A stretch of 64,000 bases of DNA, taken from Methanoregula formicica SMSP (lineage in GTDB: Archaea; Halobacteriota; Methanomicrobia; Methanomicrobiales; Methanospirillaceae). Of this stretch, positions 48,798 to 63,529 are shown one piece after another; positions within the stretch are counted from its first letter, which is position 1, and each line of letters starts with the position of its first letter. The DNA lies in assembly GCF_000327485.1 (NCBI RefSeq), contig NC_019943.1, forward strand, positions 496,001 through 560,000, read 5' to 3'. The notes under the pieces were generated by a model that was not told the DNA's origin, searched no databases, and was given only the letters and a program-made list of their open reading frames with translations. The translations under genes and the position numbers were made by a program.

Positions 48798-50264
<1,467 letters not shown>

Positions 50265-50487: not shown

Positions 50488-50492
50488 GCGGA

Positions 50493-53405
<2,913 letters not shown>

Positions 53406-53419
53406 AGTGCTCACCACGT

Positions 53420-53451
53420 TAAACCCAGACGAAATTCTGAGTGCAAACCTT
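53420..53451 (+). ncRNA. Pre-23S processing stem, 3' strand
   Basis: TAAACCC (53420-53426) and CTGAGTGCAAACCTT (53437-53451) complement the 5' strand at 50457-50487, enclosing the 23S gene. Confidence 0.65.
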
Positions 53452-53496
53452 ATATTCTATCCTGACATACAGGATAGGGTATCATCCTACACGGCT

Positions 53497-53568
53497 GCCA
53501 AGGTGGCGGAGCGGCCACGCGGTTGACTGCAGATCAACTACACTCCGGTTCAAATCCGGACCTTGGCT
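53497..53568 (+). tRNA. tRNA-Cys (GCA)
   Basis: A 72-base tRNA: acceptor GCCAAGG/CCTTGGC with discriminator T, anticodon arm GTTGA-CTGCAGA-TCAAC (anticodon GCA), T-arm TCCGG-TTCAAAT-CCGGA. CCA is not encoded. It lies between 23S and 5S. Confidence 0.95.
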
Positions 53569-53592
53569 TTCGGAGATGTGCGTCAGCACATC

Positions 53593-53625
53593 GACGAGGA
53601 GAAGAACTGCTTGCAGTTCTTCGAC
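53593..53625. repeat. Dispersed GAAGAAC hairpin element
   Basis: GAAGAACTG / CAGTTCTTC at 53601-53609 and 53614-53622 (loop CTTG), preceded by GACGAG and followed by GAC, resembles the hairpins of the 28.4-kb tandem repeat. The inner pairs differ in a compensated way. Confidence 0.65.
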
Positions 53626-53682
53626 CAAGTCGACCAAATGTGTCCGCCCTCCGTTACAAAGCATCTAAAGCAAACAACATGT

Positions 53683-53809
53683 GGTGATTGCGGCCATAGC
53701 TGTCGGGAAACACCTGGTCTCATTCCGAACCCAGCAGTTAAGCTGACACACGTAGTATGCTGTACTGAGGTACGCGAGTCCCCGGGAACCATACCAAGCT
53801 GCAATCACC
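53683..53809 (+). rRNA. rrf: 5S ribosomal RNA
   Basis: Helix I is GGTGATTGC (53683-53691) paired with GCAATCACC (53801-53809). Between them are the conserved CCGAACCCAGCAGTTAAGC-type loop and GGTACGCGAGTCCCCGGGAACC. Length is about 127 bases; ends inferred from helix I. Confidence 0.93.
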
Positions 53810-54032
53810 TTTCCTTCTTACACGACTGTTCTCGAAAAGTTACTCTAACGAGCGAATGCTTTCGTTCAAAAATTGTTATTGTATCGTTTACACGGATACC
53901 GGCAGGTCCGCGGCCTGCGTAACGCATATTCATTATTTTAAGTGAACGCATTTCATAATAAAGAAAAATAAACTGAAATATTCCACCGGTAATTTGCTGG
54001 ATTTATATCTGATGACCCTCTGTTGCTTTTAG

Positions 54033-55895
54033 TTAACTCTCGATGATGGTGATGAATTTTGAATACTGCCACCACGGATATGCAACCTCCCCGTTTGTCA
54101 GTCTCTTATAGATGATAAGACTGAATTCATATGCGCATACATCCCAGTCTCGTTCCGGGCTCTTTCCGCAATAATCCGTACGACCTTCCCACGAAGGATG
54201 ATCTGCTGGAGGAACATCATTATAATGCTGGTATTCAGCAGTTCCTGAGCATCCGTTTTTCAGTGGTCTCATTCCTGGACCGACAATAATAACAGGAGAA
54301 TCACACTGCGAGTTCCCAAACTTTGCTTTAATCTCTAGCGCATAGAGATTTTTATGGAAGTCCGTTGCAGTGAAGGATACTGTAATCGTTCCTCTTACAA
54401 TCTTTCTTGAATAGGGTGATGGTTCATAATCACATATCCGGGATTCAGTTCTCTGAAATGGCAGTTTTACGAATCCACATGAAGTTGCTGATCCTACGGG
54501 TCCTGTGATCTCGCCGATAGATCCATCGGGTGCAGTATTATCAACAAGTAATGTACAACTCAAATCGGCCGGGTTGTCTACGATTATTGGTGTTATCTTA
54601 TCCGCTTTCAGGGGCTCCAGCGTGAATGTAAATTTTCCGTAGGTCCGGGGCAACGTTCTTGTATCAAGTACCAAAACCAGACCTTTGTATACCCAGTCCT
54701 TATCTGGGGCAGTATCGTACGGATTGGGATATGTGTAGAGATCTCCATCAGGGCCCATGTATTCGGTTTTATAAAATCCTGAAGCGGGGATCTCTGCGAT
54801 AGTGGATTCACGGACACAATAAAAAGGCACGCGGATGAAAGATTCGACTACCGAACCATCCAGTTCATAGGAACACTTGATCCGATAGAATTTGACAATA
54901 TCCTTGATCCCATCCCCGATATTGGCATAAAATTTTATAATTCCAAAGAACGCTGAATCGACAACTTTGAGGGTTGCACTGTCCGTTGCACCTGTTGTAT
55001 TGGCATACCCGTGGAACGGCTTAGTCGGATCTGTATAAAGATATTTTACTGGAATGTTTCCAATGTGGTCGAATTTGAATACGTTACCTGTCAGGATCTC
55101 CGGAATATCCGGTGAGATCACCTTCCATTTGTCGATATGGATATCTTCACAGAGATCAGATTCGAGTTTTCGTAATTTGGTGTCCGGATCTTTGTATACA
55201 GATTGGAAAACACCATCAACAATCCACCCAACCTCAACCACGTACCCGAGACGTAGGTGAATCGGAAATATACAGAGGGAATACCTCATGGTTGTTCTGA
55301 AGTAACCGTAGATATCGGTATCTCCTTCAGCAACCAGCACGGTCTCTTTGATCTTATTAGTACCTAATGGCTTGACATAAGGTATACGGATTTCATAAAT
55401 CCGTACATGAGCTTTGGAAACAGGCTCTTCGTCATAACAGAGAGATCCATTAATTCTTGAGCATCCGAGTACATGGACACAAGGGCGCCATTCAATGAAA
55501 AAGTGTTTCAACCATGGTACGATATACTCCTTAACGTATGTGCTTTTTACTATCTTTCCAATTATGGCTGTGGAAACAGATATGGTAAATGTCTCATCCT
55601 TTGCTGAGAAATCCTTCGGCAGAAGTGATGTTCTTGGAAATTTATACCGGAGAATCTGATCTCCAGGCAGATCCGGACCAAAAATCAAAGCAGGAGCGAT
55701 TGCAAGTGTCTTCTTTTTGTTTTCGAAGACATCATACGAGTAGATAATGATAAATGATCCATCCTTTTCAACTGCAGAGGATCCTATAACTTTCCGGTCT
55801 CTCACAGCATATACTTTCATCGTGATGCCGGTAGGAAGCGCCCTGAACGCTTCAGAAGGGATCTTTCCCTTAATCGAGTATTTCGCCTCTTTCAT
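54033..55895 (-). CDS. Large multi-domain beta-sandwich protein of the peptidase/radical SAM operon
   Basis: This 620-residue protein lacks a signal peptide or membrane helix. The start (KYSIKGKIPSEAFRALPTGITMKVYAVRDRKVIGSS) and residues about 150-215 (INGSLCYDEEPVSKAHVRIYE ... EGDTDIYGYFRTT) look like transthyretin/carboxypeptidase-regulatory-type beta domains. A middle region has FKFDHIGNIPVKYLYTDPTKPF, and a C-terminal region is rich in Cys and aromatic residues. I recognise no enzyme motif. Codon and base use are AT-richer than in the genes before the rRNA locus. It overlaps a 50-codon ORF by ATGA and may be a structural substrate or partner of the maturase and peptidase. Confidence 0.72.
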   Translation of the reverse strand: MKEAKYSIKGKIPSEAFRALPTGITMKVYAVRDRKVIGSSAVEKDGSFIIIYSYDVFENKKKTLAIAPALIFGPDLPGDQILRYKFPRTSLLPKDFSAKDETFTISVSTAIIGKIVKSTYVKEYIVPWLKHFFIEWRPCVHVLGCSRINGSLCYDEEPVSKAHVRIYEIRIPYVKPLGTNKIKETVLVAEGDTDIYGYFRTTMRYSLCIFPIHLRLGYVVEVGWIVDGVFQSVYKDPDTKLRKLESDLCEDIHIDKWKVISPDIPEILTGNVFKFDHIGNIPVKYLYTDPTKPFHGYANTTGATDSATLKVVDSAFFGIIKFYANIGDGIKDIVKFYRIKCSYELDGSVVESFIRVPFYCVRESTIAEIPASGFYKTEYMGPDGDLYTYPNPYDTAPDKDWVYKGLVLVLDTRTLPRTYGKFTFTLEPLKADKITPIIVDNPADLSCTLLVDNTAPDGSIGEITGPVGSATSCGFVKLPFQRTESRICDYEPSPYSRKIVRGTITVSFTATDFHKNLYALEIKAKFGNSQCDSPVIIVGPGMRPLKNGCSGTAEYQHYNDVPPADHPSWEGRTDYCGKSPERDWDVCAYEFSLIIYKRLTNGEVAYPWWQYSKFITIIES

Positions 55896-56044
55896 GTTTT
55901 CCCCCCGGTTGTATTCATATTCATAATCTCGTCATGCCCATCTGCATTAACAGTCGGGCCTTTGATCTGAATTTCCGGATCAAGAAGATGACAATGCGGA
56001 GATTCCCTGAAAATCACTCTCGCAATTGATACAGGGTGCTCCAC
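55892..56044 (-). CDS. Possible small ORF between the maturase and the large beta-sandwich gene
   Basis: A 50-codon frame starting at GTG 56044 (or GTG 56014) encodes EHPVSIARVIFRESPHCHLL... and ends in TGGKT, its TGA overlapping the ATG of the next gene as ATGA. The composition is protein-like, with one Cys and two His, and it fills most of the 187-bp gap. No strong ribosome-binding site precedes it. It could be a small partner protein, a precursor peptide, or chance. Confidence 0.4.
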   Translation of the reverse strand: MEHPVSIARVIFRESPHCHLLDPEIQIKGPTVNADGHDEIMNMNTTGGKT

Positions 56045-56082
56045 ACTACATTACAACTCTCGATCCTGAAGATCACCTTGCA

Positions 56083-57498
56083 TCAATGTCCTCTTTCCCC
56101 ACCCCCGGCAGTGATATCTCCGTAACTGTTCAGTTCCGAGAAGATGAAGGCGCCAAGTTCAGTGAAATACCGGCTCATCTCACAGTCAAACAGGCAGGGT
56201 TTGGTAATATCCTGGTTGAATATAAGAGAATGAGCACGACAACCCCCCCCGCAGATATACCTTGCCCAGCACCCGGAACATTTTTCCAGAGACTTGGGCC
56301 GGAGGTTCCGTATTTTCTCGACGATTTCGGGTTTCGTTATCCCCGTATAAACATCCCCAAGCCGGTAATCATCTATCTCAATCATTTTGTGGCAAGGGTA
56401 CAGGGATCCGTCAGCAGAGACCGCCAGATAGTTTAATGCCGCCCCGCAGGAAATGGGCCGGAGGCTGATCCTTCCGGCACGTGATGCGAACTCCTCAAAC
56501 TGGTAGAATGGGACATATCGGCCACTACATGCAGAATTCAGATATATCCGGGCCAGTTCCAGATATTTACTCTTTATTATATCCAGATCTTCAGTTCTGA
56601 TTCCCAACGTTCCTGATGGATCCAAGCAGGGCTCCACCGCCACATCCGTACTCCCGGTCTCCCAAAGATGTTCGGCAATCTGGACAAGCTCCATGCAATC
56701 CCGCGTCATGGTTGCTCGGACCGCTACCGGAATGCGATTTTGATCCTTAAGGATATTCATGAGATTATTTTGCACGATATTGTGTGAACCTCGCCCGTCA
56801 GAGAAATGACGCATCGAGTCATGGATCTCCCGTGGCCCGTCAAGACTCACCATCAGACCGATATCGTTATCCAAGATATATTTCTGGACCGTGGGTGTAA
56901 GGAGTGTTGCGTTTGTTGTCATGGAAAATCCGACCTGTTTATGGTTTGCGGTAGCTTTTCTCCTAGCGTACTCAACAGTGTGTTTGATCGTATCGAGATT
57001 CAGGAGCGGCTCCCCCCCAAAGAACGTGATGCCGAGTTCCCGGATTGCTCCGGATTGTTGAATAAGGAAATCCACAGCATGTTCAGCGATCTCCGGTGAC
57101 ATGTATCCCCGGCTCCGACCAAACGTTCCCTCTTTAGCATAACAATAGGGGCACCGGAGGTTGCAGTCTTGCGATACAATAAGACATATGGTACTGATAC
57201 CGGTATCTGCAATCAGGGAATCTCCAGAAAACGGATCCGGTCCAAATACTATGCCATCTGCTATGATCTGGTCGAGTTCGACAAGAGTATCTACGATCTT
57301 CTCGGGATCGTGCGTCTGGCTGAGTTGTTTTTTAATATCTTCGTGTGGAATCCCGGTGACTGCCAGACTCAAGGCTTCAGCAGCAATCTCGTCTAGTTTG
57401 AAAAAAACACCGCTGTTTCCATCAACGGCATACCGTTGTCCTTCAATCATAAAAATATGGAGATATCGGGCCGTATCAGTACCATTTTTGGTAGTCAT
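56083..57498 (-). CDS. Radical SAM/SPASM peptide maturase
   Basis: This 471-residue protein has three parts. An N-terminal domain of about 95 residues resembles the RiPP-recognition-type domain of SPASM maturases (FMIEGQRYAVDGNSGVFFKLDEI). The radical SAM core has CNLRCPYC (112-119) and GGEP (161-164). The SPASM domain has all seven cysteines in the pattern CX12GX4C (351-369), CX2CX5CX3C (407-420) and C435. Such enzymes cross-link or otherwise modify cysteines in peptides. A strong GGAGG precedes the ATG. It lies 54 bp after the Cys-repeat peptidase gene. The nearest characterised relatives from memory are thioether-forming (SCIFF/ranthipeptide) enzymes; the reaction here is inferred. Confidence 0.88.
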   Translation of the reverse strand: MTTKNGTDTARYLHIFMIEGQRYAVDGNSGVFFKLDEIAAEALSLAVTGIPHEDIKKQLSQTHDPEKIVDTLVELDQIIADGIVFGPDPFSGDSLIADTGISTICLIVSQDCNLRCPYCYAKEGTFGRSRGYMSPEIAEHAVDFLIQQSGAIRELGITFFGGEPLLNLDTIKHTVEYARRKATANHKQVGFSMTTNATLLTPTVQKYILDNDIGLMVSLDGPREIHDSMRHFSDGRGSHNIVQNNLMNILKDQNRIPVAVRATMTRDCMELVQIAEHLWETGSTDVAVEPCLDPSGTLGIRTEDLDIIKSKYLELARIYLNSACSGRYVPFYQFEEFASRAGRISLRPISCGAALNYLAVSADGSLYPCHKMIEIDDYRLGDVYTGITKPEIVEKIRNLRPKSLEKCSGCWARYICGGGCRAHSLIFNQDITKPCLFDCEMSRYFTELGAFIFSELNSYGDITAGGGERGH

Positions 57499-57552
57499 AA
57501 CACCTCCAAGATGCGGTGCAGCCGTTGGCCGGCTGCACCGGGAACACTGAAA

Positions 57553-58851
57553 TCAGCGTGTAAGGCGGCTGAAATGCCTGTTGGATGCTCTCAACTGCTG
57601 GGCAGAATTGAGTATATCCGCCAAATCCTCCTGGAGCTGAACCGCAAGGTTCTCCAGAGTGTCTGCTACCTCATCATTGGAATATCCCGAGCTCATCATG
57701 TCCTGGATAGTCTGGATGTAGGATGATTTCACCTCGTTATATTGTGTCATGACAAGTTCTTCGGGACGGATTCTTACTGTCATATCGTCAGGTAGACGTA
57801 CATGCCGGCCACAGGGTGGCTGAACGAATTGTTTGGCTGTGCAGGTTGCCGTCTCCGTGAATTCTGGAATAATTTTACTAAGCGGCTGACAGATTGGTGC
57901 GATTATCCGCGAAGGACAACCAGGGCCAATTAACCGGCTGATCGGTGTGCATAGGAACCGAGAGAGCGGAGTGCATGTGTGACGGATTAGAGGTATACAG
58001 TCCGGTATGATGCGGGAGAGTGGAATGCAGCGGATGATCCGGCTTATTGGTGTGCAGATACTACCATCCCGTACAAGACAAAGATGGCGTGCATAACTGC
58101 CACAGGTATCGATAATAGTTAACGGCCCGCATAGCGTGTATTGGCTGCCGATACCTGCCGGATTCTCGTAGTACTGTGGCTCCTCCGCAGTACTGTCGTT
58201 GGCTTTGGCATAGTCAAACGCCTCCTTTAACGTTACCTTGCCGTCGCCTCCGCTCGCATCGACAACTGTACCGTCGGGTTGCTGGCCTCTGACAGCAGCT
58301 GTCCAGTGATAGACGAATTCATCATAGTTACCGTGCGAGTCGCATGCCCATGATACCTGATCCCAACGGCAGGCCGTTGCAATAACCCGGTTGGCCCCCT
58401 GGAGATTATCAAGGAATCCGCCGCTGTAACACTGCTCCATGGTCAGGATAGCGAGCTTGTAGGACATCGCGTCAAGACAAACAGCAAATTCAGTATCCTG
58501 TATGAATTCAGCATTCCAGAGCCAGAGTTTGGCTTTGTTCGTGCCGGTCGTAACCTGCCCGCCATGATTCGTTGAGTAGAAGAAGAAGAGGTCGTTGGCC
58601 GTGACTTTTGTTTTCATGGTAGTGAATGCGTTCAGGAGATTTGCCTTTGTGGCCGAGGCACTGATCTCGCTTGCACCATCTCCATCGAGATCATGCGGGC
58701 TTCCATCGGCATAGAGAACAGTGATATTTGCTTTCGGGTAACCACACTTTGTTACGAGGGTTTTGTAGATCTCCATAAGGTCATTGAGATACCTCCCATA
58801 GTTGGATGAAGCGTTTACACCCCCGGATACAAGTAATGCGTATTTCTCCAT
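57553..58851 (-). CDS. Caspase-like (C13-type) peptidase with cysteine-repeat tail
   Basis: This 432-residue protein opens with a clan CD peptidase domain (KYALLVSGGVNAS..., ITVLYADGSPHDLDGDG) with catalytic His96 in STNHGG and Cys141 in MEQCYSGG. After about residue 240 come seven units of the type C-x-P-I/L-S-R-I/F-I/L (Cys 266, 275, 285, 293, 301, 312, 321), then a Cys-containing linker and a helical C-terminal domain (about 355-432). The start at 58851 has GAGGG six bases upstream; ATG 58857 is the alternative. No signal peptide is evident. The repeat tail has the look of a maturase substrate, next to the radical SAM gene. Peptidase call firm; tail modification is inference. Confidence 0.85.
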   Translation of the reverse strand: MEKYALLVSGGVNASSNYGRYLNDLMEIYKTLVTKCGYPKANITVLYADGSPHDLDGDGASEISASATKANLLNAFTTMKTKVTANDLFFFYSTNHGGQVTTGTNKAKLWLWNAEFIQDTEFAVCLDAMSYKLAILTMEQCYSGGFLDNLQGANRVIATACRWDQVSWACDSHGNYDEFVYHWTAAVRGQQPDGTVVDASGGDGKVTLKEAFDYAKANDSTAEEPQYYENPAGIGSQYTLCGPLTIIDTCGSYARHLCLVRDGSICTPISRIIRCIPLSRIIPDCIPLIRHTCTPLSRFLCTPISRLIGPGCPSRIIAPICQPLSKIIPEFTETATCTAKQFVQPPCGRHVRLPDDMTVRIRPEELVMTQYNEVKSSYIQTIQDMMSSGYSNDEVADTLENLAVQLQEDLADILNSAQQLRASNRHFSRLTR

Positions 58852-58860
58852 AGCCATCCC

Positions 58861-59169
58861 TCACATGATCTTCTCCAGATTTTTCAGATTGTCCGGAGGG
58901 CTTGTTCCGTGGACCACATGCTTTTCACCTGTCTTATCATTGATGAAGACATAGTCAACGGGATGCTCGAAATTGGCATTCGGGCTATGGTCGATGAATG
59001 CAAACCAGAAGTCACTGATGGGATCATTGGTCGGGGGTTTGATCTCATCTGTCCAGTTCTTAATTACAGTATTTTGCGCAAGCTTTGTGGGATTCAGGTG
59101 GACATTAACCCCCCTTTTGTTTCCCAGCATTTGTTCCAGAATCAGACTCTCCACTTCATTTTTTTTCAT
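58861..59169 (-). CDS. Small protein heading the peptidase/maturase operon
   Basis: This 102-residue protein has an N-terminal helical, polar part and a C-terminal half SDFWFAFIDHSPNANFEHPVD / YVFINDKTGEKHVVHGTSPPD. It has no Cys in this form and no signal peptide. The ATG at 59169 was chosen because GGAGGTG lies just upstream; the frame is open to ATG 59199. It ends 9 bp before the peptidase start at 58851. A pro-domain, inhibitor or chaperone of the peptidase are all possible; I do not recognise the family with certainty. Confidence 0.7.
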   Translation of the reverse strand: MKKNEVESLILEQMLGNKRGVNVHLNPTKLAQNTVIKNWTDEIKPPTNDPISDFWFAFIDHSPNANFEHPVDYVFINDKTGEKHVVHGTSPPDNLKNLEKIM

Positions 59170-59199
59170 GACAACACCTCCAAAAGGACAGATGTCCAT

Positions 59200-59352
59200 G
59201 GAGGAATGACCATAGGGAAATTAAAAATATATTATAACCTGTAAAGGGGCTTTCGTCTTGTTAAAAGGACTTCCTTGTTGTGTTAATCTTATCATCCGAT
59301 AAAAAAATTATTCTCCAGTTGTAATATTTTCCTCATCGTATGTGTTTACTAT
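59200..59352. promoter_or_regulatory. Divergent promoter region of the peptidase/maturase operon and ubiA-like gene
   Basis: On the minus strand TATAATATATTTTTAA (59222-59237) fits a TATA box, with transcription beginning near 59200 and a leader of about 30 bases. Rightward elements around 59297 (GATAAAAAAATTATTC) and 59322 (GTAATATTTTCC) could serve the UbiA-like gene. No clear palindrome for the adjacent regulator is seen. Confidence 0.5.
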
Positions 59353-60204
59353 GTGGACTACAGATTATCGGCGACTGCTGCTCTCCTTAATGCATCCTGC
59401 CTGACGGCTCTTTCTGGCAGTGCCCGCCTTTATCTGGCGTTTCTCCTTGCAGGGTTGCCGCCAGATTGTCTGGCCTGTTTTGCCGCCGGGTTGGTAATTT
59501 ATTCTACATACACACTGGACCGTGTGTTCGCTTCCAGCGAAGATAAGATAAACCGTACGGATTACGCACATGCCAGAAGGGATATCGGAGTTGCTGTAAC
59601 GTTTGTGGCATTCATTACCGGCACTGCATTATTCTGTTCGCGGAATATCTGGGTAGCCCCATTTATTCCATTTTTCATTGGATACTTGTACTCGAAAGGG
59701 ATCAGAATTGGTAACCTCCGGTTGAGGCTCAAGGGCAGTCTCGGCGGGAAAAACCTGGTGATAGGGTTGACATGGGGGGGAACAATCGCCATGGTTATTG
59801 CAGGCTCTGATGTCAGTATCCTGTCAGTGTTGGTGGTTTTCCTTTTCTTTTTTGGGAAATTGTTCATCAATTCCGTGATTTACGACATGAAAGATACATT
59901 AGGTGATATGAGTGCGGGAATCCGGACTCTGCCCGTGGTCCTTGGAGAGAATAACACCCGTCTCGTGCTTGCCGGTATTTTCATTTTCATCCATCTTCTC
60001 GTTGCTCTGTCTATGACCTTTGGATTATTATCTCAAGAAATTGTTATCTTAACAGTCAGTTCCCTGACCACATGTCTAATCCTCGTTTTCTATTCTAGCG
60101 CACTGGAAACCTCTGTCTCCTGGCTTATGAGGAATCTCCGGATCTCATTAATCGATTGCGAAGCCCCGGTAACCGTTCTTATCCGGTTTGCCATTACGCA
60201 TTGA
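59353..60204 (+). CDS. UbiA-family prenyltransferase-like membrane protein
   Basis: This 283-residue protein with about eight helices contains YTLDRVFASSEDKINR (first Asp-rich region) and VIYDMKDTLGDMSAGIRTLP (second, close to DxxD), as in UbiA enzymes. These join prenyl chains to aromatic or other acceptors in membranes. The start is GTG, as no ATG is in frame nearby. It is divergent from the peptidase/maturase operon and overlaps the FilR1-type gene at the 3' ends by 11 bp. The acceptor is unknown. Confidence 0.75.
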   Translation: MDYRLSATAALLNASCLTALSGSARLYLAFLLAGLPPDCLACFAAGLVIYSTYTLDRVFASSEDKINRTDYAHARRDIGVAVTFVAFITGTALFCSRNIWVAPFIPFFIGYLYSKGIRIGNLRLRLKGSLGGKNLVIGLTWGGTIAMVIAGSDVSILSVLVVFLFFFGKLFINSVIYDMKDTLGDMSAGIRTLPVVLGENNTRLVLAGIFIFIHLLVALSMTFGLLSQEIVILTVSSLTTCLILVFYSSALETSVSWLMRNLRISLIDCEAPVTVLIRFAITH

Positions 60205-60973
60205 GCCGTTCAGACCGGTTCTGATAGAATGTGAAGAGGTCCTCCCCGAACCTTAGTGCTGATTTACTTGTCGAGATGAGGTCCTGTTTTGAATCAAACA
60301 ATCCGTTGTTCAGGAAGAATGAGATGGAAAAACAGTAATCCGTTACGATATAGGCGAAATGAATGTCGTCCGGGTAGATAAACAGGCTGGCATTCGCATA
60401 ACCGAGGCCCTCCATCAACATATTGTAATACTCTCGTTTGATCTTTTCAAATGCACTTTTTGTCAGGATAAGGGAGATTGATTTATTCTCTTTTGCCAGG
60501 TTCAGGAACAGATTTGGGTAGCGGGGATGCACGATAGGGGAAATTCCTTTGATCCGGGATGCCTGCTGCAGGGATGCAATGAACTCTGTGTGGGGTTCGA
60601 AGCTATCCTCAACACAGCACTCAATAATCTGGATCTTTTCCAGCTCCCCTATACGCAGGAGGAACTCTTCCGGGAGTGCATGGATATTATGATCCTCCCA
60701 GAATTTCCTCTGCTGTCCCAGAACGGCAAGTGCGCCGTCAAATGGTCCGAGGAACCGGACGATCAGCTGCCCGGTCTCGGTGAGATAGAACTGTCGCCCT
60801 TCCCTGCAGAGCAGTTTCTGGTCCTCGAGAATCTTGATCTGGGGGAGGATTCCCGTTGCAGTTACATGCAGTGTGTCCTTGATCTCGTCCCAGGTTCGGG
60901 GGCCAGCAGCCAGAAAGAGGAGAAGTCTCTTCCGTTTTTCCGATGATGTTGTGACAGCCAGGAGATCGGACAT
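60194..60973 (-). CDS. Winged-helix regulator with FilR1 (DUF1724) domain
   Basis: This 259-residue protein has an N-terminal winged helix (RLLLFLAAGPRTWDEIKDTLHVTATGILPQIKILEDQKLL) and a C-terminal domain of about 150 residues (IIECCVEDSFEPHTEFIASLQQASRIKGISPIVHPRYP...) of the methanogen FilR1/DUF1724 type. FilR1 relatives control metabolism and cell form in methanogens. An AT-rich promoter (ATATATGATAATTATTAATAG) lies just upstream. It probably regulates itself or the neighbouring operon. Confidence 0.82.
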   Translation of the reverse strand: MSDLLAVTTSSEKRKRLLLFLAAGPRTWDEIKDTLHVTATGILPQIKILEDQKLLCREGRQFYLTETGQLIVRFLGPFDGALAVLGQQRKFWEDHNIHALPEEFLLRIGELEKIQIIECCVEDSFEPHTEFIASLQQASRIKGISPIVHPRYPNLFLNLAKENKSISLILTKSAFEKIKREYYNMLMEGLGYANASLFIYPDDIHFAYIVTDYCFSISFFLNNGLFDSKQDLISTSKSALRFGEDLFTFYQNRSERLNA

Positions 60974-61082
60974 ATATGATAATTATTAATAGTAATCTTA
61001 ATGTTTACTGTAGATATGTTGGCATTATATAATTTCTATGTGGTATTTAGATAATTTAAATTCGGCAACATGGAGAGAAATT

Positions 61083-62091
61083 TCACCATGCAGGATGACT
61101 CACCCGTTCCTTTGTGCAGTGTATCTCTCCCAACCACATCACCTGGCACCCTCCCCTGCAGAGATCCAGTACCGTACACTCCCGGCATTCCCTGGAGATG
61201 TGAGGAAGTCCCTCGTTACGGCAGGGGAAAGATCCCTGCTCCCAGATCTTCTCGAACGTCTCCTTTCGCAGGTCTCCGGCGATGATTACGGCTCCACAGA
61301 AGAAGAAGTCCAGCCGGTGGATTTCCTATCATAGTCTTTTCCCAACCAGCCAAGATTATCCCCTATGAGAATCGGGACGCGGTCCTCAATCTTCCCGGTG
61401 ATGAAATCGAGGAGTGATCGCAACTGACCGTCCGATAAGAAGAGTGAAGCATTTCCTGCAGCCCTCCCAACCGGCATCACCGTCCCGACCCTCCAGAGAT
61501 CGGCATTCTCCCTTGCGATGTCGTAAAGATCCCCAATCTCGGGGAGATTCAGGGGCGATATAATGGAGGTCATGCAGGACTGGCGGCAGCCGTGGGATTT
61601 CAGCAGCTTCAGGGCTTGTATTGCACCAGAGAATGCACCCGGGGGGTCTTTCGCAGGGCATCGTGGGTCTTTTCGGTTCCATCCACGCTGACCTGCACCG
61701 AGGCGGCAACCCGGACAATTCTCCCGATGTTTGCCTCCGATACTGCCAGCCCGTTTGTGGAAAATCCCGTCTCCATGCCCCCTTTTTTTGCCAGTTCCAG
61801 GACATCGAGGAGATCTGCACGTAAGAGCGGTTCGCCTCCGGTAACGAGAAACCTTCTCACGCCAAGACCTGCAGGGTCCCGGACAATTCCCGATATCGCC
61901 GCCGTTGACAGTTCATCCCCAGCAGTATCACACCCCGACGATGCCCCGCCGTGGATGCATGCCATCGTGCAATCCCGGGTACACTCCCATATCACGGTCT
62001 TTGGTGGCGGTGTCTTCCCCCATCGTTGCATGGTGCTGAACCCTGCAGTAAGGGCCTTGACCTGTAATCTCCGGAGAAAAGAACTGCTCAT
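61083..62091 (-). pseudogene. Radical SAM/SPASM protein pseudogene
   Basis: Reading from ATG 62091, the first frame has WECTRDCTMACIHGG, VTGGEPLLR and VSVDGTEKTHDALRKTP, then breaks at a C-run near 61637-61646. A second frame carries GAFSGAIQALKLLKSHG, MTSIISPLNLPEIGDLYD and IGDNLGWLGKDYD, and breaks again near 61315-61325. The third frame gives DFFFCGAVIIAGDLRKETFEKIW and the SPASM cysteines (CRECTVLDLCRGGCQ) to a stop at 61083. The third cysteine of the CX3CX2C motif is Gly (61948-61950). Three lesions make activity unlikely. AT-rich promoter sequence remains upstream. Confidence 0.85.
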
Positions 62092-62125
62092 TATAGTTTT
62101 ATACTAAATATTTTCATATTAATGT
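62092..62125. promoter_or_regulatory. Short AT-rich divergent promoter
   Basis: TTATAGTTTTATACTAAATATTTTC between the radical SAM pseudogene and the small membrane protein gene can serve as TATA elements for both directions. Inference from composition. Confidence 0.4.
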
Positions 62126-62383
62126 ATGGTTAACAGAGCCCGGATAGCGAAATCGGTTTGTATCCTCAGCTTTCTGGGCATTCTGCTCTTTGGTTTTTAT
62201 GCCTTCCTGCTGTCCACTGCCATGTATGCTCCGCCCGAGATGATGGCGCAGGCCGCCGCAAGAAAATCGCAGGAATTTATGCGGATCAGCATCGCCGTCG
62301 TGATCCTCGTCGTCGTCTGTATTGCCAGTTATCTCTATGGCAATAAACAGGAAGCTCCCCGGCCTCCAAACGAAGGGATGTGA
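62126..62383 (+). CDS. Small two-helix membrane protein
   Basis: This 85-residue protein has a helix at about 10-30 (SVCILSFLGILLFGFYAFLLS) and another at about 55-71 (ISIAVVILVVVCIASYLYG), with a short polar loop and tail. No family is recognised. Start ATG 62126, just downstream of an AT-rich promoter. It is convergent with the kinase gene. Confidence 0.6.
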   Translation: MVNRARIAKSVCILSFLGILLFGFYAFLLSTAMYAPPEMMAQAAARKSQEFMRISIAVVILVVVCIASYLYGNKQEAPRPPNEGM

Positions 62384-62437
62384 TCTCCTGAGTGGGGGAT
62401 ATTCCGACAAACGGACATTCACCCGCAGATCTTTCTA

Positions 62438-63529
62438 TTATCCGGGAACGCGCCACGTCTCTTTCGGCACCGTGATCTCGAACACAACGCCCTTTCCGAC
62501 CTCACCGGTCTCCCGAATGGCAAGACCGGTGATAGCCAGCACCTCACGGATAAAGAACAGTCCGAAACCGGTATTCTTGCCGTATCCCTGCTCGAAGATC
62601 TTCTGTTTCTCATGAGGCGGAATGCCGCACCCGTCATCCCGGTAGCGGATGATGAGGCTCCCGTCCGGGACGGTCTCCGTCTCCACCGCGATGTTCCGGA
62701 CCGGTCCCCCGTGCCGGATGCTGTTGTCGATCAGGTTGTAGAACACCCTGCCAAAGAGCGGGTCCGCATAGATCCGGGCATCGTTTGCGGGCAGGTGAAT
62801 ATGGATCGACTCCCTCCCGACTGCCGCTGCCGCGTCCCTGACGCACTGGCAGAGCCCCTGCCATTGTGGTGCTTTCACACCGACACTCTGGTAATCTTTC
62901 GTGAAGAGGATCTGGTCTTTTATCCTGACGACCTGGTCACGGATACCGGCAGCGAGTTCTTTTGCATCGCGGTCCGTTGTCGTTGCAGCGAGCATATCGC
63001 AGAGCCCGAGGACGCCGGTGATGCTGTTCAACACATCGTGCCGGGTCACGCTGTTCATCATGTTCAGTTTCTGGTTGGTGAGCGCAAGGGCCTTCTCGAG
63101 CCGGGCCTGCTCCGAGATATCGACGATAACGCCGTGGACCCCTGCGATCCGCTTCTCCCCGATGATCGGCGAGGCGTAGATGATGGCCGGGATCTTCCGG
63201 CCGTCGTGAGCAGTGATGCAGCACTCGATATGGCCGCTGGTCACATCCTGCTGGATGCGGGTGAAAAAGGACCTGACTTTCTCCCGGTCGGGCTCGCAGA
63301 CGATATCGAAGATGCCGGCCCGGTCCTCTGCCTGCTCGTCGTAGGCATGCCCGATGATATCGATAGCGCTCCAGTTGAAGAACGTGAACCTGAGATCTTC
63401 ATCAAGCTCGAAGACGATCTGGGGGAGGAGCTCAGCAAGGTCTTCGAACCGGGTATCGCAGTTGGTGTCCGGTTTCCGCTTATGCGTTGGGGGATGGAGG
63501 GGATTATGGTTGTTTTGCATTCGTTTCAT
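62438..63529 (-). CDS. PAS-domain histidine kinase
   Basis: This 363-residue protein has a PAS/PAC unit (about 30-145; PQIVFELDEDLRFTFFNWSA ... VIVDISEQARLEKAL), phosphoacceptor box SVTRHDVLNSITGVLGLCDML and an ATPase domain (IDNSIRHGG, YRDDGCGIP, NTGFGLFFIREV). It is cytoplasmic. The start ATG at 63529 overlaps by one base the stop of a seven-codon ORF as TAATG; the frame also runs to a TTG at 63592. It belongs to the TRHD group of kinases seen elsewhere in the window. No cognate regulator is adjacent. Confidence 0.88.
   Translation of the reverse strand: MKRMQNNHNPLHPPTHKRKPDTNCDTRFEDLAELLPQIVFELDEDLRFTFFNWSAIDIIGHAYDEQAEDRAGIFDIVCEPDREKVRSFFTRIQQDVTSGHIECCITAHDGRKIPAIIYASPIIGEKRIAGVHGVIVDISEQARLEKALALTNQKLNMMNSVTRHDVLNSITGVLGLCDMLAATTTDRDAKELAAGIRDQVVRIKDQILFTKDYQSVGVKAPQWQGLCQCVRDAAAAVGRESIHIHLPANDARIYADPLFGRVFYNLIDNSIRHGGPVRNIAVETETVPDGSLIIRYRDDGCGIPPHEKQKIFEQGYGKNTGFGLFFIREVLAITGLAIRETGEVGKGVVFEITVPKETWRVPG

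Follow-up and report, generated by a model that had tools for sequence, protein, structure and literature searches.

The known targets of radical S-adenosylmethionine (SAM)/SPASM maturases are short precursor peptides and, in a few cases, enzymes or their subunits (QhpC, sulfatases). A gene block in Methanoregula formicica SMSP raises the question of whether a protease can also serve as the substrate of such an enzyme. The block lies in the 64,000 nt stretch analysed here, referred to as the window (NC_019943.1, 496,001–560,000; positions below are window positions), and encodes on the minus strand, in order of transcription, a 102 aa protein, a 434 aa C13 peptidase, a 471 aa radical SAM/SPASM maturase, a 50-codon open reading frame (ORF) and a 620 aa orphan. 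A sequence-only reading had proposed that these genes form a system resembling those for ribosomally synthesized and post-translationally modified peptides (RiPPs), with the Cys-repeat tail of the protease as the best candidate substrate, and all the ORFs that it placed in the block were present in the ORF list at the coordinates given. We consider it reasonably probable that the block is a protein-maturation module in which the SPASM maturase cross-links the Cys-repeat tail of the C13 protease, best filed as a new form of radical SAM/SPASM protein maturation. Computation yielded the gene order, the domain identities, the splitting-off of a prodomain, the predicted disorder of the tail and the occurrence of one gene trio in two distant genomes, with different maturases. 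If true, a protease substrate would widen the target range of radical SAM/SPASM enzymes and point to a novel means of regulating or stabilising proteases.

A cysteine-repeat tail beside two different SPASM enzymes

The proposed C13 identity of the peptidase was upheld by a match to Pfam family PF01650 (47.5 bits against a cut-off of 22.8), by His98 and Cys143, which were invariant in all its relatives, and by legumain as the top structural match among PDB folds. An invariant Arg (R22 in the window) aligned in profiles with an Arg of legumains and plant asparaginyl ligases that we take to be part of the S1 pocket, which suggests, as a lead, cleavage after Asn or Asp. Since the peptidase lacks the hydrophobic N-terminal segment carried by its fused relatives, it should be cytosolic. 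The AlphaFold model comprised a confident catalytic domain (residues 1–248), a disordered region (249–361) and a helical hairpin (365–433) with a predicted local distance difference test score (pLDDT) of about 80; pLDDT below 50 spanned exactly the Cys-repeat tail, residues 249–361. Twelve Cys fell within residues 243–349 at a spacing of 8–16 aa, and the motif CxP[LIV][SI][RK] occurred six times in the tail, against a maximum of two in 20,000 composition shuffles, so that the repeat described earlier stands out above shuffled sequence.

The maturase matched Radical_SAM (56.8 bits) and SPASM (23.3 bits) in Pfam, both above cut-off, and carried the CxxxCxxC motif and all seven auxiliary Cys of a peptide maturase. 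Its top PDB match, aligned over the full length, was CteB (PDB 5wgg), and the N-terminal parts of the two proteins aligned; that of CteB is a RiPP recognition element (RRE; PMC8172795). Both the full auxiliary set and the recognition-type N-terminus had been read correctly from the sequence. The best-scoring families were SCIFF, PapB, ScfB-like, QhpD and NlpM (317 to 270 bits), all below their curated cut-offs (SCIFF TIGR03974, 317.5 against 425; PapB NF047865, 303.1 against 340; QhpD TIGR03906, 287.4 against 453), and there were no dehydrogenase subunit genes, as would go with QhpD, among the neighbours examined. By these scores, the maturase falls outside all the named families tested. Its placement in a maturase tree was unreliable, the maturase alone as query returned no match in the genome-collection scan, and single-protein queries returned none in the viral scans. 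Archaeal maturase matches (G343, G129 and G333) were set aside because their neighbours were Nif11-like leader peptides, not peptidases, as were plasmid matches (Nostoc, Bradyrhizobium, Mesorhizobium, Streptomyces) that had no C13 gene and, by their neighbours, looked like clusters for LodA-type protein maturation.

Co-occurrence of peptidase and maturase in other genomes had been named as a check, and its absence as a refutation. We compared a catalytic-domain alignment with one genome per species (84,980 species) and kept 80 loci. The closest peptidase relative (57 % identity; next 44–49 %) was locus L032 in a Desulfobulbus metagenome-assembled genome, taken to be bacterial because its contig carries a GGDEF-like protein recognized by eye. 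This locus has the trio of the window, with order and strand unchanged: it encodes a standalone prodomain (119 aa frame), a C13 peptidase that lacks a signal peptide and, from a frame that opens no more than about 20 bp from the stop of the peptidase gene, a SPASM enzyme. The pair was therefore present in a second, distant genome, with a SPASM enzyme that is not orthologous to that of the window. An adjacent radical SAM gene was found at 2/2 tailed loci and at 0/80 untailed relatives (79 from the species scan and one viral contig, some with flanks shortened by contig ends; p=3e-4). The sole untailed locus with a radical SAM gene in its flank, L066, has it 1.7 kb away on the opposite strand. 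Nearly all other scan loci had a hydrophobic N-terminus, and none had such a tail; likewise, where readable, no comparable tail or adjacent radical SAM gene accompanied the C13 genes of a Methanomethylovorans plasmid, of other members of the order or archaeal phylum, or of the phylum to which the Desulfobulbus genome belongs.

The L032 tail holds seventeen Cys, in fourteen consecutive near-identical 11-mers (C-x-PGTPIPRPx) followed by three degenerate units, and would make an unusually clean test substrate. Both tails are Cys-rich and have a common [TN]PI[SP]R core. The two maturases, in contrast, are just 22.8 % identical and belong to different SPASM subfamilies, while both keep all ten cluster Cys; that of L032 scored best with AhbD, StsB, NirJ2 and mycofactocin-type families, below all cut-offs, and its N-terminus gave a weak PqqD-like match. 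Why two unrelated maturases should both adjoin a tail of this kind is difficult to see if they do not act on it, and this is the best available evidence that the tail is their substrate. With co-occurrence, non-orthologous maturases and predicted disorder, the earlier substrate proposal survives its own refutation test and is partly supported: the tail is probably cross-linked by the neighbouring radical enzyme. In L032 the peptidase C-terminus is also Tyr/Asp/Glu-rich with a second, Tyr/Asp/Trp-rich repeat (L032:4337–4523; 42 bp, 4.5 copies), possibly another modification target.

Several points weigh against tail cross-linking. There are two tailed loci, and the window is the one that prompted the hypothesis, leaving one locus of 81 as independent evidence. 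Similarity between the two tails lies just modestly above that of composition shuffles, 8 of 2000 of which reach it; as acceptor residues, the L032 repeats offer hardly any Glu and no Asp at all, which excludes Cys-to-Asp/Glu chemistry there; and the L032 contig ends soon after the maturase, so that the 620 aa gene is uncheckable there. The small number of loci, the frequency of radical SAM genes in anaerobes and the differing SPASM subfamilies, as expected of unrelated neighbours, would all suit a chance neighbourhood in which radical SAM gene and protease are unconnected. We regard this as quite improbable, given that an archaeon and a bacterium share order, strand and tight spacing and that none of the 80 untailed relatives has an adjacent radical SAM gene.

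The maturase could instead target another local protein (the 620 aa orphan, the small protein or the 50-codon ORF), with the Cys tail structural or metal-binding. Two of these genes lie downstream of the maturase, and Cys-rich tails can in general bind metal. The small protein, however, lacks Cys in Desulfobulbus and, from the ATG at 59169, in the window, and the adjacent radical SAM gene tracks the tail, not the other proteins. The 50-codon ORF has a GTG start, no Shine–Dalgarno sequence, one Cys and no family match, and overlaps the start of the 620 aa gene by ATGA; its standing as a gene, suggested earlier with reserve, is doubtful, and with a single Cys and no ribosome-binding site it was rejected as a precursor. 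Searches for the 620 aa protein in 232 genomes of the class and in plasmids, phages, Pfam, NCBIfam and the PDB returned no homologue. Taken together, we judge a different local target rather unlikely.

A further alternative keeps the tail as substrate and makes it the multi-core precursor of a RiPP, carried by the very protease that processes it: each repeat would be modified, and the C13 enzyme would cut the tail to free small modified peptides. The fourteen near-identical 11-residue units of L032 fit such a scheme, as does the presence of peptide asparaginyl ligases among C13 relatives. Yet no transporter was seen in the adjoining genes, the window repeats are irregular, and, if specificity is legumain-like as the invariant Arg hints, self-release of the L032 units is disfavoured because they lack the Asn or Asp required. 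We hold this alternative to be unlikely. In favour of the tail as substrate, there was no small Cys-rich precursor ORF with a ribosome-binding site, as would accompany a SCIFF maturase, in 52500–62500; for an Acetoanaerobium maturase, the same kind of reading brought out an adjacent SCIFF-like peptide at once. The earlier label of a RiPP-like system is not borne out in the product sense: no leader–core precursor or transporter was identified, and the best candidate substrate lies within a 434 aa enzyme.

In the favoured reading, tail cross-linking, translation would yield a cytosolic legumain-type protease along with its prodomain, which has a gene of its own and which, by homology to fused prodomains, probably aids folding and holds the protease inactive. 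The maturase would bind the peptidase via its RRE-like domain and then cross-link the disordered tail through its Cys, most likely by thioethers, as its enzyme family, the nature of the tail and the co-occurrence suggest. By analogy with known enzymes it most likely joins tail Cys to nearby residues. Within a single protein subunit, QhpD forms three thioethers from Cys to Asp/Glu (PMC7876137); Tte1186 forms one between Cys and Thr in a SCIFF peptide (PMC8172795). Because the L032 repeats lack Asp and almost lack Glu, these cannot be the acceptors there; candidates are the Thr, Ile or Arg of the [TN]PI[SP]R core. Cross-linking might then compact what is otherwise a flexible connection from the catalytic domain to the C-terminal helices, so that it could position, regulate or stabilise the protease, the weakest step of the scheme; the tail may act as a stiff spacer, a regulatory brake or a means of peptide release. 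There is perhaps an even chance that this is a new class of radical SAM target, namely an active Cys protease that has a substrate tail, is held in check by a separate prodomain and is served, across archaea and bacteria, by two or more non-orthologous maturases. A search of open-access full text, where absence is no proof of novelty, returned no paper linking peptidase C13 and radical SAM and none on radical SAM with Cys-rich, repeat, RiPP, tail and caspase; the portions of a RiPP leader-protease review reached by the search terms did not mention C13, legumain or caspase.

A separately encoded prodomain

The sequence-only reading had recorded the small protein at 58861–59169, which was indeed present, without its identity as a prodomain. 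It resembled the N-terminal region of secreted C13 peptidases from the same order (BLASTP 3e-11, small set), and a profile of 27 fused prodomains found it as the sole match among 1173 window ORFs (E=2.4e-22). The fused-form profile aligned over both the small protein and the peptidase with one stop inside, and a fused relative was modelled as a single confident unit with a legumain fold (pLDDT 88.5; predicted template modelling score 0.89). On these grounds the small protein is, by its sequence, a split-off C13 prodomain. Prodomains in general inhibit or help to fold their proteases, and the same role would be expected here, making the split a readily testable activation switch.

The two genes meet in the same frame at TGA-GGG-ATG, and GGAGGTG lies upstream of the small-protein ATG (59169). 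In L032 they likewise share one frame, split by TAG and a GGGAGGG ribosome-binding site. One gene freshly broken by a stop was rejected as an explanation, since the Desulfobulbus locus is likewise split in frame, at another stop codon and with a ribosome-binding site of its own.

A phage-like contig with tail genes (L112:7510–8756; IMG/VR 3300042922_000922) encodes an ATPase, a standalone prodomain homologue (157 aa frame) and a cytosolic C13 peptidase, possibly a prodomain/protease pair in a phage. This peptidase has no Cys tail, and there was no radical SAM gene within the available flank. The cytosolic split pair thus exists alone, and the tail and maturase look like an addition to it. In five bacterial loci (L034, L036, L037, L039 and L048), an extra lipoprotein-like or signal-bearing prodomain gene sits directly upstream of a fused-prodomain C13 peptidase; these could be trans-acting inhibitors.

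Genomic setting and origin of the block

The genome is a single contig of 2.82 Mb with archaeal rRNA, and recurring named relatives in the species-wide scan place it probably in Methanomicrobiales. The minus-strand block sits downstream of the rRNA operon (Table 1), and its AT-richness, noticed at first reading, was borne out: its genes have 43–51 % GC, against 58.3 % for window 1–48000. Acquisition of the block, proposed at the same time, is likely, because the other genomes of the order contained no relative of the 620 aa protein and no close relative of the maturase, and peptidase relatives within the order are secreted types. Loss elsewhere is the alternative. The strong hairpin between the peptidase and maturase genes could hold maturase expression below that of the peptidase, in favour of substrate over enzyme.

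Table 1. Coordinates of the block and of the adjoining RNA genes in the window
Feature	Position	Strand	Basis or remark
16S rRNA	48798–50264		
23S rRNA	50491–53412		
tRNA-Cys	53497–53568	+	Between 23S and 5S rRNA genes, directly ahead of AT-rich block
5S rRNA	53686–53807		
620 aa orphan, possibly same operon	54033..55895	-	No homologue found
50-codon ORF, doubtful	55892..56044	-	GTG start, no Shine–Dalgarno, one Cys, no family match
Radical SAM/SPASM maturase, 471 aa, N-terminal RRE-like region	56083..57498	-	Pfam, NCBIfam, full-length CteB 5wgg alignment, ten cluster Cys
Intergenic RNA hairpin, peptidase/maturase	57499..57552	-	-32.8 kcal/mol, z=-4.3
Cytosolic C13 (legumain-type) peptidase, 434 aa; catalytic domain 1–248, His98/Cys143	57553..58857	-	PF01650, conserved dyad, confident model, top PDB folds legumains
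C-terminal helical hairpin of peptidase, residues 365–433	57556..57765	-	Model, pLDDT about 80
Cys-repeat tail of peptidase, residues 249–361, proposed substrate region	57775..58113	-	Repeat statistics, pLDDT <50
Small protein, standalone C13 prodomain homologue, 102 aa, no signal peptide	58861..59169	-	27-sequence profile, BLASTP, ribosome-binding site

The flanking genes were as first described, a UbiA-family prenyltransferase (PF01040; PRK13591 above cut-off) and a FilR1_middle regulator (121 bits). The divergent UbiA gene (59353–60204, plus strand) is a second copy; the other, at 1067695–1068513 of the genome, is 42 % identical to it, about as similar as copies in related genomes. At 61286–62091 (minus strand) lies a remnant of a NirJ/AhbD-like radical SAM gene in two pieces in different frames, an N-terminal half (61609–62091) with its motif altered to CxxxCxxxC and a C-terminal-looking piece (61286–61573). 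PADLOC matches to viperin and caspase were dismissed as superfamily membership only.

Comparison with known systems

Legumains and peptide asparaginyl ligases (C13, clan CD) share fold and catalytic dyad with the window peptidase, which differs in being cytosolic, in its Cys-repeat tail and in a split prodomain that is N-terminal, where that of legumain is C-terminal. In the secreted C13 peptidases of archaea and bacteria, where the prodomain is fused, both the catalytic domain (about 40–49 % identity) and the prodomain are homologous to those encoded in the window; these proteins have a hydrophobic N-terminus and lack a Cys-repeat tail and a radical SAM neighbour, unlike the window peptidase.

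Among maturation systems, the CXXX-repeat (TIGR04115) and Cys-every-fifth (NF038107) types are alike in that a SPASM maturase is proposed for a region of regular Cys repeats, but the window maturase scored 122 against 350 and 99 against 600, the repeat period is 8–16 (window) or 11 (L032), and the repeat is on a protease. The SCIFF/ranthipeptide maturases (CteB, Tte1186, PapB) are closest by sequence (317 and 303 bits) and also have a Cys-rich substrate; here, scores are below the cut-offs (425 and 340) and no small precursor peptide adjoins. QhpD/QhpC belongs to the same broad SPASM group (287 bits) and has a protein subunit, not a small product peptide, as target, with several Cys cross-links in one chain and the substrate gene in the same operon (PMC7876137). 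The window maturase falls below the QhpD cut-off of 453, the locus lacks dehydrogenase subunits, and the substrate proposed here is a repeat-tailed protease, the repeats of which lack Asp/Glu acceptors in L032. By analogy with these enzymes, the best reading is of a system that would work like QhpD/SCIFF chemistry while standing outside those families.

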